Origin: Salminus brasiliensis
Lineage: Eukaryota > Chordata > Actinopteri > Characiformes > Bryconidae
DNA: 64,000 nucleotides
Direction: 5' to 3'
Assembly (NCBI RefSeq): GCF_030463535.1
Contig: NC_132896.1
Location: 32,648,977 to 32,712,976, forward strand
Part shown: positions 505 through 45,109 of the stretch, one piece after another
Position numbering within the stretch: position 1 is the first letter of the stretch
How the letters are laid out: the number at the start of each line of letters is the position of its first letter
Program-made: the position numbers and the translations under genes
Notes under the pieces: model-generated
Told to the model about the DNA's origin: nothing
Databases searched by the model: none
The model's input: only the letters and a program-made list of their open reading frames with translations

Positions 505-3500
505 ATGGCTTGCGTTGCGATTTTTGTCTTATTTCTATATAAAATATGTACGTTCTAAAAGTTTAGAAAGTTTCTTAAAATGACTAGACTAAAAGTTTTT
601 TTTAAAAGATTTTTTATTTTTTATTAAAATGCTCTACTTCTTATTTTATAGGTTCTACTCAAGCTGTGGGAAACCCTGAACCACTGTTTCTCTCAGCTAA
701 GGTTGGTGAAGCCGTTACTCTCCACTGTCCACCTGGAGTCCACTCCAGTGCAGAAATTATGATGTGGTACAAGCAACGACTGAACCATTCACCACTGGAA
801 GTGGCGTCAAGGTTTAAAGATAAGGAGCCAGTAATTTCAGCCCAGTTTGACCAGTCAAGATTTAAAACAAACAAAGATGCGAGTGGCTTTTCTCTCACTA
901 TTGAAAATGTTAGTAAGAAAGACGAGGGGCTGTACTTCTGTGGAGGCGGTGATGCCAAATCACTGAGCTTCTCTACCAGTACATTCCTAGCAGTGAAAGG
1001 TAATCACTAAACTTATATTTCTAAATAATCTTATTATTTCCAGCTGAGATCACTCAGGTATGTTGTTTCTACTGATACTAATGCAGTAAGTACATTATGT
1101 AAATATCAATTTTCCATTACAATCAAGGTGCTTCAACGCTGGACAGGCATGACAGACATCATGTTCTTGTTTTATGGTCCCATCTTATTGCTGAAATCCA
1201 AATCTCCCACTGTTTATATCATATTTACAGATTCAAACATCTCAGTGGATCAAACTCCAGTACTGGAATCAGTTTCTTCAGGAGAGTCGGTGACTCTGCA
1301 GTGCACGGTCCTCTCTGAGGTCAGTCCAGAAGATCTCAGGGTGCTCTGGTTCAGATCTGCTGCAGGACGATCCTTTCCAGAAATCATCTACACTGATTAC
1401 AGTAGCAGCAGCCGTCAGTGTGAGACCAGCTCCTCTCCACACAGCTGTGTGTACAACTTCTCCAAGAACATCCTCAACGACGACGATGCTGGAACTTACT
1501 ACTGCGCTGTGACCACCTGTGGGAAGATCATCATTGGCAATGGAACAGCAGTGGGATTAAGTAATCAGATTTTCTGTTTGCTACAGTTAGTGGAAGCAGT
1601 GCTGGCTCGAAATCTCACAAAGCCTGCAGGTCAATAATACAGTTTTCATTCCTGACCTCTCTTTTCTAGTCCATCACCAACCTGTGCTGGGGGGCGTTTT
1701 CCTGGGTCTGGCTCTGGGGTTGAGCTTATTTGGCAATATCATTCAGGCCTGCTGGAGCTGGAGAAGAGGGATCTGCAGTGGTGAGTTCATTCAGATGAAC
1801 CAAATGTTCTTCAGTTTATGACCAGGTTCCTGAACTTCTAACACTGTTCCTCTTAATGCATTTCAAGGTGAAACATCTCAGTCTGGCCTCCACGATTTCC
1901 CAGAGGTGCTACAAGACCAGGTATGTTACTATTCTGCTGCCAGCTGATGCCAGCTGATACCAGCAGTGGTGGCTCAGCGGTTAGAGCGCTGGGCTATCGA
2001 TAACAGGGTTGTGGGTTCGATTCCTGGGCTTGACAAGCTGCCATTGTTGGGCCCTTGAGCAAGGCCCTTTACCCTCTCTGCTCCCCAGACGCTGGAGTTG
2101 GCTGCCCACTGCTCTATGTTACTCACAGATGAGTAACATAAATAGTTCCATGCTTTGGTTTCCTGTCCTTTAACTTAACAGGTGATGATCGGTTGTGTTG
2201 AGACTCATTCATTAACATTCACACTCATGTTTTTTGAAAGCTTCTTTGCACATATAAAGTATTGTTTGGTCTCTTTGTGATGGTAGACCCTTTACTGGTA
2301 CCTGTAGGTCCCATGATGGCATTTTAGGATCTTCTCCTTGTGCATTATGTGGTCTGCAGTTGGGCTTGCTAGGATGGCTTGAGTTGACCATAATGGCAGT
2401 TGTTCTACTTGTGAATTATATAGAGGGCAGTGAAACAGCTGTTTTCTGATTGTTCTGAGATCTTTTTAAAACTAAAGCAACCTTTCCCAGACCTGGAAAT
2501 CGTTCTTGGCCGTGGTGGCTCAGTGGTTTGACAGCCAGGCTATCAATAACAGGGTTGTGGGTTCGAGTCCCTGGCTTGACAACCTGCCACTATTGGGCCC
2601 TTGAGCAAGGCCCTTTACCCTCTCTGCTCCCCGGGTGGTGAAGTTGGCTGTGCCCTGCTCTGGGTGTGTGTATACTCGCTGCTCCTAGTTCACTACCACA
2701 GATGGGTTAAATGCGGAGGACACATTTCGCTGTACACTGACAAATACGTGCACCTTCTTTCTGATGGTCTGAGAGAGCTCTTTGGATCTCTGAATGGTGA
2801 TATAGAGTCTGAGGCTTCTCCAAAATCCTCTGTAATGATTTAATCATCTATAGCTGATGAGCTGCTCATGGCTTTAATTTTAGACATTTTAAATAGTCTC
2901 ACTCAAAAGAAAATGCATTTCTATTAATTGCATTTCACAAATGATGCTTAAAAGACATTTCATATTTTTTTTATTTTGTCTTCTTTGCTCTGTATTCTTC
3001 AAATGAGGTTCAAATATTCTATGTTTAAATTAACCCTGTGTTAAAAGGATTTCACAGGATGTTCTATTTTTTGTTTGTTGCTATTTTGAGCAGAGTAACA
3101 AGAATACAGCAAATGTGTAGTAAAGTGTAGATTACATCTCCCACAACCAGCTGGAAACTTTGACACCTCCAAAACATGGTGTGGTTTTAACACCAGTTCA
3201 GACACGGAGCCTCTTTTTCTTTTTCTCACAGTTTCAGACCATCATCACTTAAAGCTGATACTCAGAGTTAGTTTGAGACTGTAGCATCATAACCGCAGTG
3301 TCAGATCTGGAAAACAGAAAAACTGCATTGTACTCATTGTACCAGATCACAGAGGCCTCATGCATGAAACACAGAAACACTCACTCAGATAAGTCAGAAT
3401 TAAATAACTGTGTGTGAAAAGTCATGCTGCTGGTTGCCGATTGAAAATTACCATGTGTGTAGATCACCATCAGCACTACTTTCTAATCTACTGTACAAAC

Positions 3501-4170
3501 TACAAAACCTACTAGATAGGCGTCGTGCCCGTGTACTGAAGTGATTACAGCATGTGATACTGGATTACTGATACTGGGATTCTGTAAATCATTTAAAAGC
3601 AAATATCGAGAAATTCTTAATTGAAGTGTGTTTAATTGAACATTTCCCTGGATGTGGAGAGATCTATAAACCTGAAAATAAACCCCCTGAGCTGCCCTGA
3701 CTCTACCCTGACTATCCTGAGAGCTCCCCTAATCCTACTCCAGCCCTAACCCAGCTGCCCTATCCCTACCCTAACCCTAGATCTTTCCTTACCCCTTCCT
3801 TACCTATCTATAATCATAACCTTAGTCTTTAATGATCATTACAAACTACTCCATTCAGATTTCAACTGGTGAGCTACAAAAACGTCATGTAGATGGTCCT
3901 GTTGGCACTGATGGTGCTGCTGTGATGTACATTCTTCTGTATGGAGCTACAGGCCCCTGCTAGAATTTAATTACTGAAGTTATACTGCCACCTACTGGAG
4001 GTTCTCATTTCAGCTCTTGTCTTTTTTTGAAACAGGATGATGAAGATGAGTTCTGCTTTGCTGCTTCACATTTCTCTGAGAAGATGAAGAGAGCAGTGTT
4101 CATGGAGAACGTTTTCACCAAAGTCAGATTTACCCCCTTTTCCTTAAACCCACCCAGTGAAGTGAAGTGA
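505..4170 (+). CDS. nitr: NITR-type receptor, V class A, acidic tail without ITIM
   Basis: Predicted type I membrane receptor of 339 aa. Exons: leader 505-547, V domain 652-999, second Ig domain 1231-1560, TM 1670-1780, linker 1868-1920, tail 4036-4170. All junctions are GT-AG and the joined frame is open. Signal peptide: residues 1-18. The V domain (about 19-130) shows the LHC cysteine, WYKQ and DEGLYFC; its J-like end FSTSTFLAV has lost the usual Gly. The second domain (about 131-240) shows LQC, VLWFRSAAGR, DAGTYYCAV and CGKIIIGNGT. The TM (about 247-266) is uncharged. The tail starts DDEDE and contains no tyrosine: the sister gene at 42092 has EFYFAALHF where this one has EFCFAASHF. The V exon matches the gene at 10435, while the TM and tail match the gene at 42092. 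Two SINEs sit in the 2.1-kb intron 5. A polyadenylation signal AATAAA lies at 4461. Ligand unknown. Confidence 0.9.
1964..2115 (+). mobile_element. tRNA-derived SINE, 3'-truncated
   Basis: It starts with an A-box-like GTGGCTCAGCGGTTAGAGCG and a B-box-like GGGTTCGATTCC, followed by the TTGAGCAAGGCCCTTTACCC body shared with the copies at 2511 and 63504. It lies in intron 5 of the first NITR. Confidence 0.85.
2511..2757 (+). mobile_element. tRNA-derived SINE, near full length
   Basis: Same family as the copy at 1964, here with the complete 3' part (GCGGAGGACACATTTCGCTG followed by ACAAATACGTGCACC). It has a B box GGGTTCGAGTCC. Also in intron 5 of the first NITR. Confidence 0.88.
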
Positions 4171-45000: not shown

Positions 45001-45109
45001 CTTCGCTGCTTTACATTTCTCTGAGAAGATGAAGAGAAGAAAGTTCAAGGACAACATTTTCACCAAAGTCAGATTCACCCCCTTTTCTTATCACAAGCCA
45101 ACACAGTGA
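42092..45109 (+). CDS. nitr: NITR-type receptor, V class B, acidic tail without ITIM
   Basis: Predicted 345-aa receptor. Exons: leader 42092-42134, V 42258-42608, second Ig domain 42816-43148, TM 43237-43350, linker 43438-43490, tail 44966-45109; frame open. V domain: LSC, WFKQRLEH, DEGMYFC, J-like FSNGTFLAV. It differs from the V exon at 61124 by only two bases in 351. Second domain: DAGTYYCAV and GKIIIGNGT. The TM is uncharged, followed by CWSWRRGICC. The tail begins with seven Asp encoded by (GAT)n, then EFYFAALHFSEKMKRR, and a conserved TKVRFTPF near the end. Its two tyrosines (FYFAA, FSYHK) do not fit the ITIM or ITSM pattern, so it should not signal like the others. TM and tail are of the type at 505. 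AATAAA at 45326. Confidence 0.92.

Follow-up and report, generated by a model that had tools for sequence, protein, structure and literature searches.

Organization of the locus

The region considered here, referred to below as the window, is a 64,000-nucleotide stretch of the genome of the characiform fish Salminus brasiliensis (RefSeq assembly GCF_030463535.1, contig NC_132896.1, forward strand; C19:32648977-32712976). It carries tandem genes in which a leader exon is followed by separate V, I and membrane exons and then by two exons for the cytoplasmic part. In these genes, two classes of V domain (V_A and V_B) are combined with two types of cytoplasmic tail, one bearing immunoreceptor tyrosine-based inhibitory motifs (ITIMs) and the other, described as acidic in an earlier sequence-only reading of this DNA, designated the F-tail. 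Heads and tails of these genes follow conflicting trees, and the conflict is probably explained by the copying of a recognition cassette between genes whose promoters and tails stayed in place. The principal genes are the following, with positions counted from the first base of the window.

505..4170, + strand: G1, V_A plus I plus F-tail; exon 1 ATG read at 505, exon 2 652-999, exon 3 1231-1560, then tail exons 4 (1670-1780), 5 (1868-1920) and 6 (4036-4170; DEFCFAAS and NVFTKV at the two ITIM sites)
10435..12991, + strand: G3, V_A plus I plus double-ITIM tail; start taken from the sequence-only reading, exon 3 11161-11490, exon 4 12154-12261, exon 5 12422-12465, exon 6 12845-12991
22158..25780, + strand: G4, V_B plus I plus double-ITIM tail; start from the same source, exon 3 22864-23196, exon 4 24081-24197, exon 5 24312-24355, exon 6 25628-25780
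42092..45109, + strand: G8, V_B plus I plus F-tail; exon 1 ATG at 42092, exon 2 42258-42608, exon 3 42816-43148, exon 4 43237-43350, exon 5 43438-43490, exon 6 44966-45109 (EEFYFAAL and NIFTKV at the two ITIM sites, after an acidic run)
61109..64000, + strand: G11, V_B plus I plus ITIM tail; exons 2-5 inside the window, exon 4 62587-62703, exon 5 62800-62843

The ITIM-bearing exon 6 of G11 lies at window-relative position 64031, beyond the window end. Two ITIMs are present in each of G3, G4 and G5, an ITIM-like exon occurs in G6, and further ITIM genes lie outside the window.

On the basis of their exon architecture, matches to the V-set profile and to NITR sequences, and the presence of menin near a related cluster on C9, the window genes are assigned to a teleost novel immune-type receptor (NITR) cluster. 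V and I domains lie on separate exons, followed by a transmembrane exon and two cytoplasmic exons, and the splice sites of exons 4-6 of G1, G3, G4 and G8 were read from genomic sequence. Pfam V-set was recognized in all eight immunoglobulin (Ig) translations scanned. When a profile of the 10 window V domains was compared with the PDB, six distinct NITR10/NITR11 sequences were matched over positions 2-109 or 8-109 of 112 (E 1.4e-20 to 6.6e-19) within the best 60 of 1859 matches, the remainder being mostly antibody chains, several of which scored above the NITRs; antibodies also predominate among the 60 matches listed in two single-sequence PDB searches. J-like motifs take the forms FSNGTFLAV in the V domains of G4, G8 and G11 and IIGNGTTV in the I domains of G3, G4, G8 and G11, which are variants of FGXGTXLXV rather than the full motif. 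Among the I domains of gene classes A-D defined below, eight of nine contain five cysteines and that of G4 contains six. A genome search (1.07 Gb, 103 contigs) with one I domain found two large clusters, on C19 and C9, along with a few weak matches on C2 and C3 (26-35% identity), and men1 (menin) lies 0.46 Mb from the C9 cluster, that is, the cluster not containing the window. According to the accessible part of the published description of the medaka and zebrafish NITR clusters (PMC2442602), these share with the present genes V and I domains, J-like motifs, separate V and I exons in some genes, a transmembrane exon with two cytoplasmic exons, ITIM tails and, as regards the C9 cluster, location on the men1 chromosome; the clusters on zebrafish chromosome 7 and medaka chromosome 18 are also near menin, and medaka NITR I domains have six cysteines in most cases and one fewer in two.

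Conflict between heads and tails in the window

The sequence-only reading had proposed that all four pairings of V_A and V_B with ITIM and acidic tails coexist, and they do: the four genes lie on the forward strand at or near the positions it had given, with tails ending at 4170, 12991, 25780 and 45109. The V classes are likewise as proposed, exon 2 being 97% identical between G1 and G3 and 91% between G4 and G8, against 64-66% between classes A and B. Two ITIMs are present in G3 (LNYAPI, LVYSQV) and in G4 (LNYAAV, LVYSQV); no ITIM was found in the G1 and G8 tail exons.

Sequence sets from the window comprised 10 V, 9 I, 6 exon 4-5 and 6 exon 6 sequences, leaving out G11 exon 6 (outside the window), G7 V, the damaged I exons of G6 and G10, and, from the exon 6 set, G2, G7, G9 and G10. 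Among the 333 sites of V, the phylogenetically informative ones divide 97:0:0 between G1G3|G4G8, G1G4|G3G8 and G1G8|G3G4; the corresponding counts are 4:1:57 for the 141 sites of exons 4-5 and 1:0:35 for the 126 sites of exon 6. The conflict between exon 2 and exon 4-6 trees, which had been suggested as a check, was found in approximately unbiased (AU) tests: a G1+G8 clade imposed on the V data costs 255 log units and is rejected, while a G1+G3 clade imposed on exons 4-5 or exon 6 costs 82 or 59 log units, respectively, and both are rejected. The best tree of exons 4-5 places G8 with G5, and a G1+G8 clade is not rejected there (delta 2.5, p-AU 0.19); the I exon tree is undecided between the groupings (G1+G3 p-AU 0.08).

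The four combinations by themselves require just one recombination. The double-ITIM tails of G3 and G4, judged by an exon 6 synonymous divergence (dS) of 0.58 and by the alignment of exon-centred pieces only, are old paralogues and not one recent module.

Gene classes across the wider cluster

Analysis of 200 kb around the window identified six further genes of this group, named H0-H5, which bring the total to 11. Class A contains G3 (ITIM) together with G1 and H4 (F-tail); class B contains G4 and G11 (ITIM) with G8 and H5 (F-tail); class C, without an I exon, contains H0 (ITIM) and H1 (F-tail); and class D contains H2 (ITIM) and H3 (F-tail). All eight combinations of V class and tail type are thus filled. 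The 11-gene matrix was built without G2, G5, G6, G7, G9, G10, class E and other cluster genes; G2 and G6 entered a separate 7-gene matrix of a neighbouring class. Exon 5 of H0 and of H2 was not located. The V tree of the 11 genes requires five tail changes, the maximum with five ITIM genes, and the tail tree requires seven head-class changes as compared with three in the absence of exchange. In the 11-gene V test, tail grouping is rejected (delta log-likelihood 639), and the maximum-likelihood and head-constrained trees are tied. The proposal that heads and tails were re-paired more than once is borne out by this conflict and by the crossing pairs across the cluster described next.

The shared cassette and its boundaries

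All gene pairs were compared over six gene segments. Over the promoter, exon 1 and intron 1, the genes group as G3 with H2 and H0, G4 with G11, G8 with H5, and H1 with H3, each group having a single tail type; the promoter of G1 resembles the first of these groups though its tail is of the F type. Four cassette pairs cross tail types, namely H0 (ITIM) with H1 (F-tail), H2 with H3, G3 with H4, and G11 with G8. Their exon 2 identities are 99%, 99%, 97% and 99%, respectively, and intron 2, measured in the last three, is 94%, 99% and 97% identical, whereas similarity in the promoters (45-61%) and tails (42-54%) does not exceed that seen between other groups. The shared unit is a block of about 0.9 kb, composed of exon 2, intron 2 and exon 3, that is 96-98% identical. 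Near-identical heads on differing tails, as the sequence-only reading supposed, are found repeatedly, and the cassettes with at least one copy inside the window are as follows.

42243..43154, + strand: G8 cassette (exon 2-intron 2-exon 3), with 890 matches, 17 mismatches and 3 gaps against G11
61109..62034, + strand: G11 cassette, counterpart of the G8 cassette
10598..11495, + strand: G3 cassette, 98.0% identical to that of the F-tail gene H4 (window-relative 88081-88980, outside the window)
5883..6844, + strand: G2 cassette (neighbouring class), 97.4% identical to that of the gene at window-relative 83159, which has a different tail type

The G8/G11 pair illustrates the block. Exon 2 (350/352), intron 2 (193/203) and exon 3 (319/327) are nearly identical, while only 127/191 positions upstream and 71/122 in intron 1 agree; the G11 upstream region is identical to that of G4 at 177/192 positions. 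G11 is nearest to G4 in promoter and tail and nearest to G8 in cassette. The block begins 20-26 bases ahead of V codon 1 in all four A-D pairs, within the intron 1 acceptor. Six pairs retain exon 3, and in five of these the block ends 12-19 bases beyond the final I codon compared, about the intron 3 donor. Intron 2, which is free of coding constraint, lies inside the block, and each of the four crossing pairs shows zero or one synonymous difference in V. Nonsynonymous and synonymous V changes number 9:0 in G1/G3, 9:1 in G3/H4, 3:1 in H2/H3, 2:0 in G8/G11 and 0:1 in H0/H1; an excess of nonsynonymous change after copying may be regarded as a tendency only, and positive selection is not claimed.

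Exon 3 was correctly singled out in the sequence-only reading as a near-identical stretch: among the nine A-D genes retaining it, identity is 94-99% and dS is 0-0.071, as against V dS of 0.97-1.01 between classes A and B. These values indicate that exon 3 is homogenized across V classes. Since intron 3 differs among scaffolds, exon 3 is the last stretch where an exchange can end on the tail side, and the true right-hand breakpoints may lie anywhere within it. In H0 and H1 most of exon 3 is deleted, with identical ends relative to H2, which marks their heads as one lineage despite their different tails.

The F-tail

When exon 6 of G1 and G8 is aligned to the ITIM exons, Phe stands at both ITIM tyrosines (LNYAAV versus FYFAAL, LVYSQV versus NIFTKV). 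On this alignment, the acidic tail is of the ITIM type, its two ITIM Tyr residues being replaced by Phe. A genome-wide search at an E threshold of 0.001 gave at least eight matches to the F-tail exon, all of them in the C19 cluster and all eight with Phe at both sites, and three further shortened copies retain the second Phe. In the 11-gene tail tree, the six F-tails and the five ITIM tails are separated with support 100. The tails of G1 and G8 align piecewise over 1687-4340, introns included, with a 91% identical block of 252 bases over exon 4, intron 4 and exon 5. Two further features of the window are related to this tail.

29035..32306, - strand: G5, with V at 31968-32306, I at 30307-30621, an acidic-type membrane exon at 30013-30129 and a double-ITIM exon 6 at 29035-29166 (LNYAAL, SVYSEM)
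38569..38730, + strand: relic F-tail-type exon 5 with an in-frame stop, beside which no F-tail-type membrane or tail exon was found

Exons 4-5 of G5 cluster with those of G1 and G8, and its exon 6 does not. Because G5 joins a related membrane exon to an intact two-ITIM exon 6, the change from Tyr to Phe is probably the derived state, and the F-tail would descend from an ITIM tail. Independent origins of the acidic tail in G1 and G8 are conceivable in that single-base changes suffice to turn Tyr into Phe codons; this convergence is extremely improbable and is rejected by the introns shared between the two tails, in line with the full support for the split between F-tails and ITIM tails.

In five of 13 mutually non-independent comparisons of F-tail exon 6, nonsynonymous changes per site are fewer than synonymous changes at p below 0.05 (H4/E1 p 0.001, with four synonymous and no nonsynonymous changes; H1tr/E3tr 0.016; G8/H3 0.018; H3/H4 0.031; G8/H1 0.033). 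Such values suggest purifying selection on the F-tail in some comparisons and are consistent with constraint at the protein level. By eye, no K, R, D or E was seen in the membrane segment of the six F-tail genes G1, G8, H1, H3, H4 and H5, all of which share a membrane Asn with G5. As Phe cannot be phosphorylated, a tail with Phe for Tyr should not recruit SH2 phosphatases via these sites, and with no charged membrane residue seen, the F-tail receptors should not bind Dap12, as Nitr9 does according to the consulted portion of PMC3463160. The charged membrane residue that marks activating, Nitr9-like NITRs was thus not seen in the F-tail genes.

Three F-tail genes have two successive last cytoplasmic exons, a possible alternative ending (window-relative -15713/-14735, 80295/81177 and -8508/-7496). 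In the class-E gene E1 (window-relative -11385 to -7398), a class-E head and type II membrane exon seem to be joined to F-tail exons 5-6, with the switch in intron 4, which would seem to be a second joint besides exon 3. The tail of E2, the upstream neighbour of G1, is hidden by a run of N to the left of the window, and the E1/E2 pair was left unscored, as E2 runs towards this gap.

The neighbouring gene class

Genes of a neighbouring class precede the A-D genes and form two sets, 1a, 2a and 3a (the last being G2) versus 1b, 2b and 3b. The first set has promoters 64-77% alike, type III tails 76-80% alike and shared intergenic stretches; the second has promoters 80-91% and type II tails 78-87% alike. 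Exon 2 crosses the sets (1a/1b 98%, 2a/2b 98%, 3a/3b 99%), and intron 2 and exon 3 follow in 2a/2b (95%) and 3a/3b (97%). In gene order, 1a, 2a and 3a are followed by H0, H2 and G3, respectively, and 1b, 2b and 3b by H1, H3 and H4, respectively; units carrying ITIM-tailed A-D genes are here called alpha and those carrying F-tailed genes beta. The three alpha/alpha comparisons of intergenic DNA all give matches and the nine alpha/beta comparisons give none; within the beta set only 2b/3b matches well, the 1b/3b match amounting to 28 bases.

Both genes of each unit share heads with the same partner unit, in (-59485, H0)/(-25673, H1), (-48998, H2)/(72085, H3) and (5939, G3)/(83159, H4), and the DNA between the two genes is unmatched. 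The chance of one such unit-order match is 1/6.

Mechanism, direction and competing explanations

These observations are most readily accommodated if the recognition cassette of about 0.9 kb (V exon 2, intron 2 and I exon 3) was copied between genes by ectopic gene conversion, while the promoter, leader and intron 1 stayed together with the membrane and tail exons as scaffolds. Exon 3 would probably serve as the anchor where exchange starts or ends, and the outcome would be the presence of each V class A-D on both an ITIM scaffold and a Phe-for-Tyr scaffold. The dissimilar DNA on both sides of the block argues for two-sided gene conversion, as a single crossover would bring the promoter along. 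Heads would have moved mostly from ITIM (alpha) to F-tail (beta) scaffolds, and an F-tail receptor might bind the ligand of its ITIM counterpart, fail to recruit SH2 phosphatases and thereby lessen inhibition as a decoy; this last is the weakest step. Taken as a whole, with the decoy step included, cassette conversion onto promoter/tail scaffolds is considered likely.

The direction of copying can be proposed with moderate confidence because parts of the beta scaffolds are younger than the cassettes they carry. In alpha units, promoter and tail are about as diverged as the cassettes, whereas in beta units identity among H1, H3 and H4 is 98% in the exon 6 region as against 77-81% in exon 2, and gene-1 beta promoters are 80-91% identical as compared with 73-83% in exon 2. 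The H1/H3 promoters (75%) and the H4 promoter fit this direction poorly.

An alternative, which we judge unlikely, is that whole units were duplicated and that the cassettes, remaining stationary, subsequently received new tails and promoters by replacement or conversion. Replaced flanks formally yield the same mosaic, and the near-identity of the exon 6 regions of H1, H3 and H4 means that tails, too, have been homogenized; the intron 4 joint in E1, and the restriction of well-matched beta intergenic DNA to 2b/3b, are also compatible with such replacement. Against it, the intergenic comparisons (alpha/beta 0/9 versus alpha/alpha 3/3) would require still more DNA to have been replaced on each side.

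Unequal crossing-over at exon 3/intron 3, by which heads would have been joined to new tails and which the sequence-only reading favoured as the way in which halves were re-paired, is quite unlikely. G1 fits it, since its upstream region (31:1:2 informative sites) and intron 2 (29:2:4) group with G3 and its tail with G8 (1:0:35), and H1 changes from H0-like to H4-like sequence at about -17531/-17524. However, similarity falls on the promoter side as well as on the tail side in all four near-identical A-D pairs and in three neighbouring pairs, and the promoter tracks tail type. A simple exon 3 crossover is rejected as a general rule, as promoters do not follow heads; G1, whose 5' part groups with G3 and whose 3' part groups with G8, is the only gene that looks like a single-crossover hybrid.

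Assembly error, through joined haplotypes or over-polished paralogous exons, is very improbable. Paralogous exons are hard to assemble, and a 2500-base N run (window-relative -2499 to 0) abuts window base 1 next to G1; yet the window itself contains no N, and seven pairs spread across about 150 kb show the crossing, intron 2 being 94-99% identical in the three A-D pairs measured and the DNA outside the block dissimilar. Recurrence in seven pairs leads us to reject a purely haplotype-artefact reading.

Several observations nevertheless weigh against cassette conversion, or against parts of it. All mosaics were read from one assembly and one haplotype, in genomic sequence alone, and the exon 3 donor of G1 (GTAATC) is weak by eye. 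The H4 promoter resembles no group, and the finer order of F-type tails disagrees with the promoter groups (in exons 4-5, H1 is nearest H4 and H3 nearest H5). A fifth pair, G4/H5, is weak, with 92% exon 2 identity and support 77, and intron 2 of H5 is nearer to G11 and G8 (69 and 68%) than to G4 (61%). The right edge of 1a/1b lies at -9, the left edges in the neighbouring class vary (-51, -100, -56), and intron 2-exon 3 of 1a/1b is only 85% identical, below 1b/3a (89%). Column permutations (0/2000 in every one of 10 pairs) take no account of rate differences between exon and intron; as they are blind to slower exon evolution, it is intron 2 and the silent sites that carry the argument. With regard to constraint on the F-tail, the remaining comparisons are not significant (G1/G8 p 0.37). 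With regard to selection for mixed pairing, random labelling gives probabilities of 0.10 (four firm pairs), 0.069 (five) and 0.028 (five plus the neighbouring pairs), and both tail types of the neighbouring class carry ITIM-like motifs.

Paired heads and comparison with known receptor systems

Selection for mixed pairing is suggestive only. It is plausible that same-head pairs see similar ligands and signal differently, although the heads within pairs are not identical (nine nonsynonymous changes each in G1/G3 and G3/H4), and competition of the F-tail receptor with the ITIM form, as a decoy, is a plausible and the most economical guess. A stronger form of this idea, in which the array would generate paired receptors by copying cassettes preferentially across scaffold types, so that each specificity would be represented by one ITIM receptor and one ITIM-dead twin (a competitor, or a receptor signalling via the membrane Asn), is put forward tentatively and is rather doubtful.

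Near-identical ectodomains on different tails, the hallmark of paired receptors, are present at this locus. In KIR, similar ectodomains also occur on opposite tails, and the non-inhibitory partner of a paired receptor usually signals via a charged membrane residue or an immunoreceptor tyrosine-based activation motif. The array offers several natural pairs in which nearly the same head is placed on an ITIM tail and on a Phe-for-Tyr tail, a swap that laboratories usually make deliberately. With such pairs it could be tested whether inhibitory heads are captured repeatedly in the evolution of decoy or paired receptors, as has been proposed for mammalian natural killer cell receptors.

The closest parallel is provided by the primate Siglec-11/Siglec-16 pair, in which, according to the portion of PMC5701461 consulted, an inhibitory and a non-inhibitory receptor differ in their tails and have ligand-binding exons that are kept similar by gene conversion. 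As far as that portion goes, this system differs in comprising one gene pair, a converted part that includes upstream DNA in humans, and an activating partner, whereas the present locus has an array of cassettes, a promoter outside the shared block, and a partner tail that is ITIM-like without tyrosines. CEACAM and CD300 paired receptors, in the partial accounts available, also show similar ectodomains on opposite tails and belong to different gene families. Activating NITRs have a charged membrane residue in the available text of PMC2442602, whereas in the second tail described here both ITIM tyrosines are replaced by Phe and no charged membrane residue was seen. The same report, in the text available, regarded concerted evolution as a less likely primary force in medaka, and its main text, to the extent available, does not contain the terms 'shuffling', 'recombination' or 'gene conversion'; in contrast to that judgement, exon 3 and whole cassettes look strongly homogenized here. 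A literature search for NITR head/tail mosaics, by titles and starts of abstracts, with most subscription journals outside its coverage, found no report. Conversion that keeps inhibitory and non-inhibitory receptors alike is known; in these fish NITRs it would take the form of an array.

Other features of the window

Several genes are likely damaged, including G6 (35704-35880, internal deletion in the I exon), G7 (39763-40062, V exon not found) and G10 (56832-57119, usual ending of the I exon lost). Scans for tRNA genes and Rfam families returned nothing relevant to the head/tail question. A third type of tail exon (SVYSEV/VSYFTV-like) follows G2 (7845-7967) and G9 (54557-54637), with gene-less copies upstream of G4 (20201-20293) and G11 (59067-59159). 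A collinear segmental duplication relates 15043-25802 (DNA downstream of G3, and G4) to 46032-63992 (DNA downstream of G8, and G11); G9 and G10 occur in the second copy only, and G3 and G8 occupy matching slots yet share neither V class nor tail type. Near the window end, a UnaL2-type 3' element of a long interspersed nuclear element lies on the minus strand at 63757-63810 (Rfam RF00436), and the neighbouring repeats at 63476-63748 match 1963-2115 and 2509-2756.

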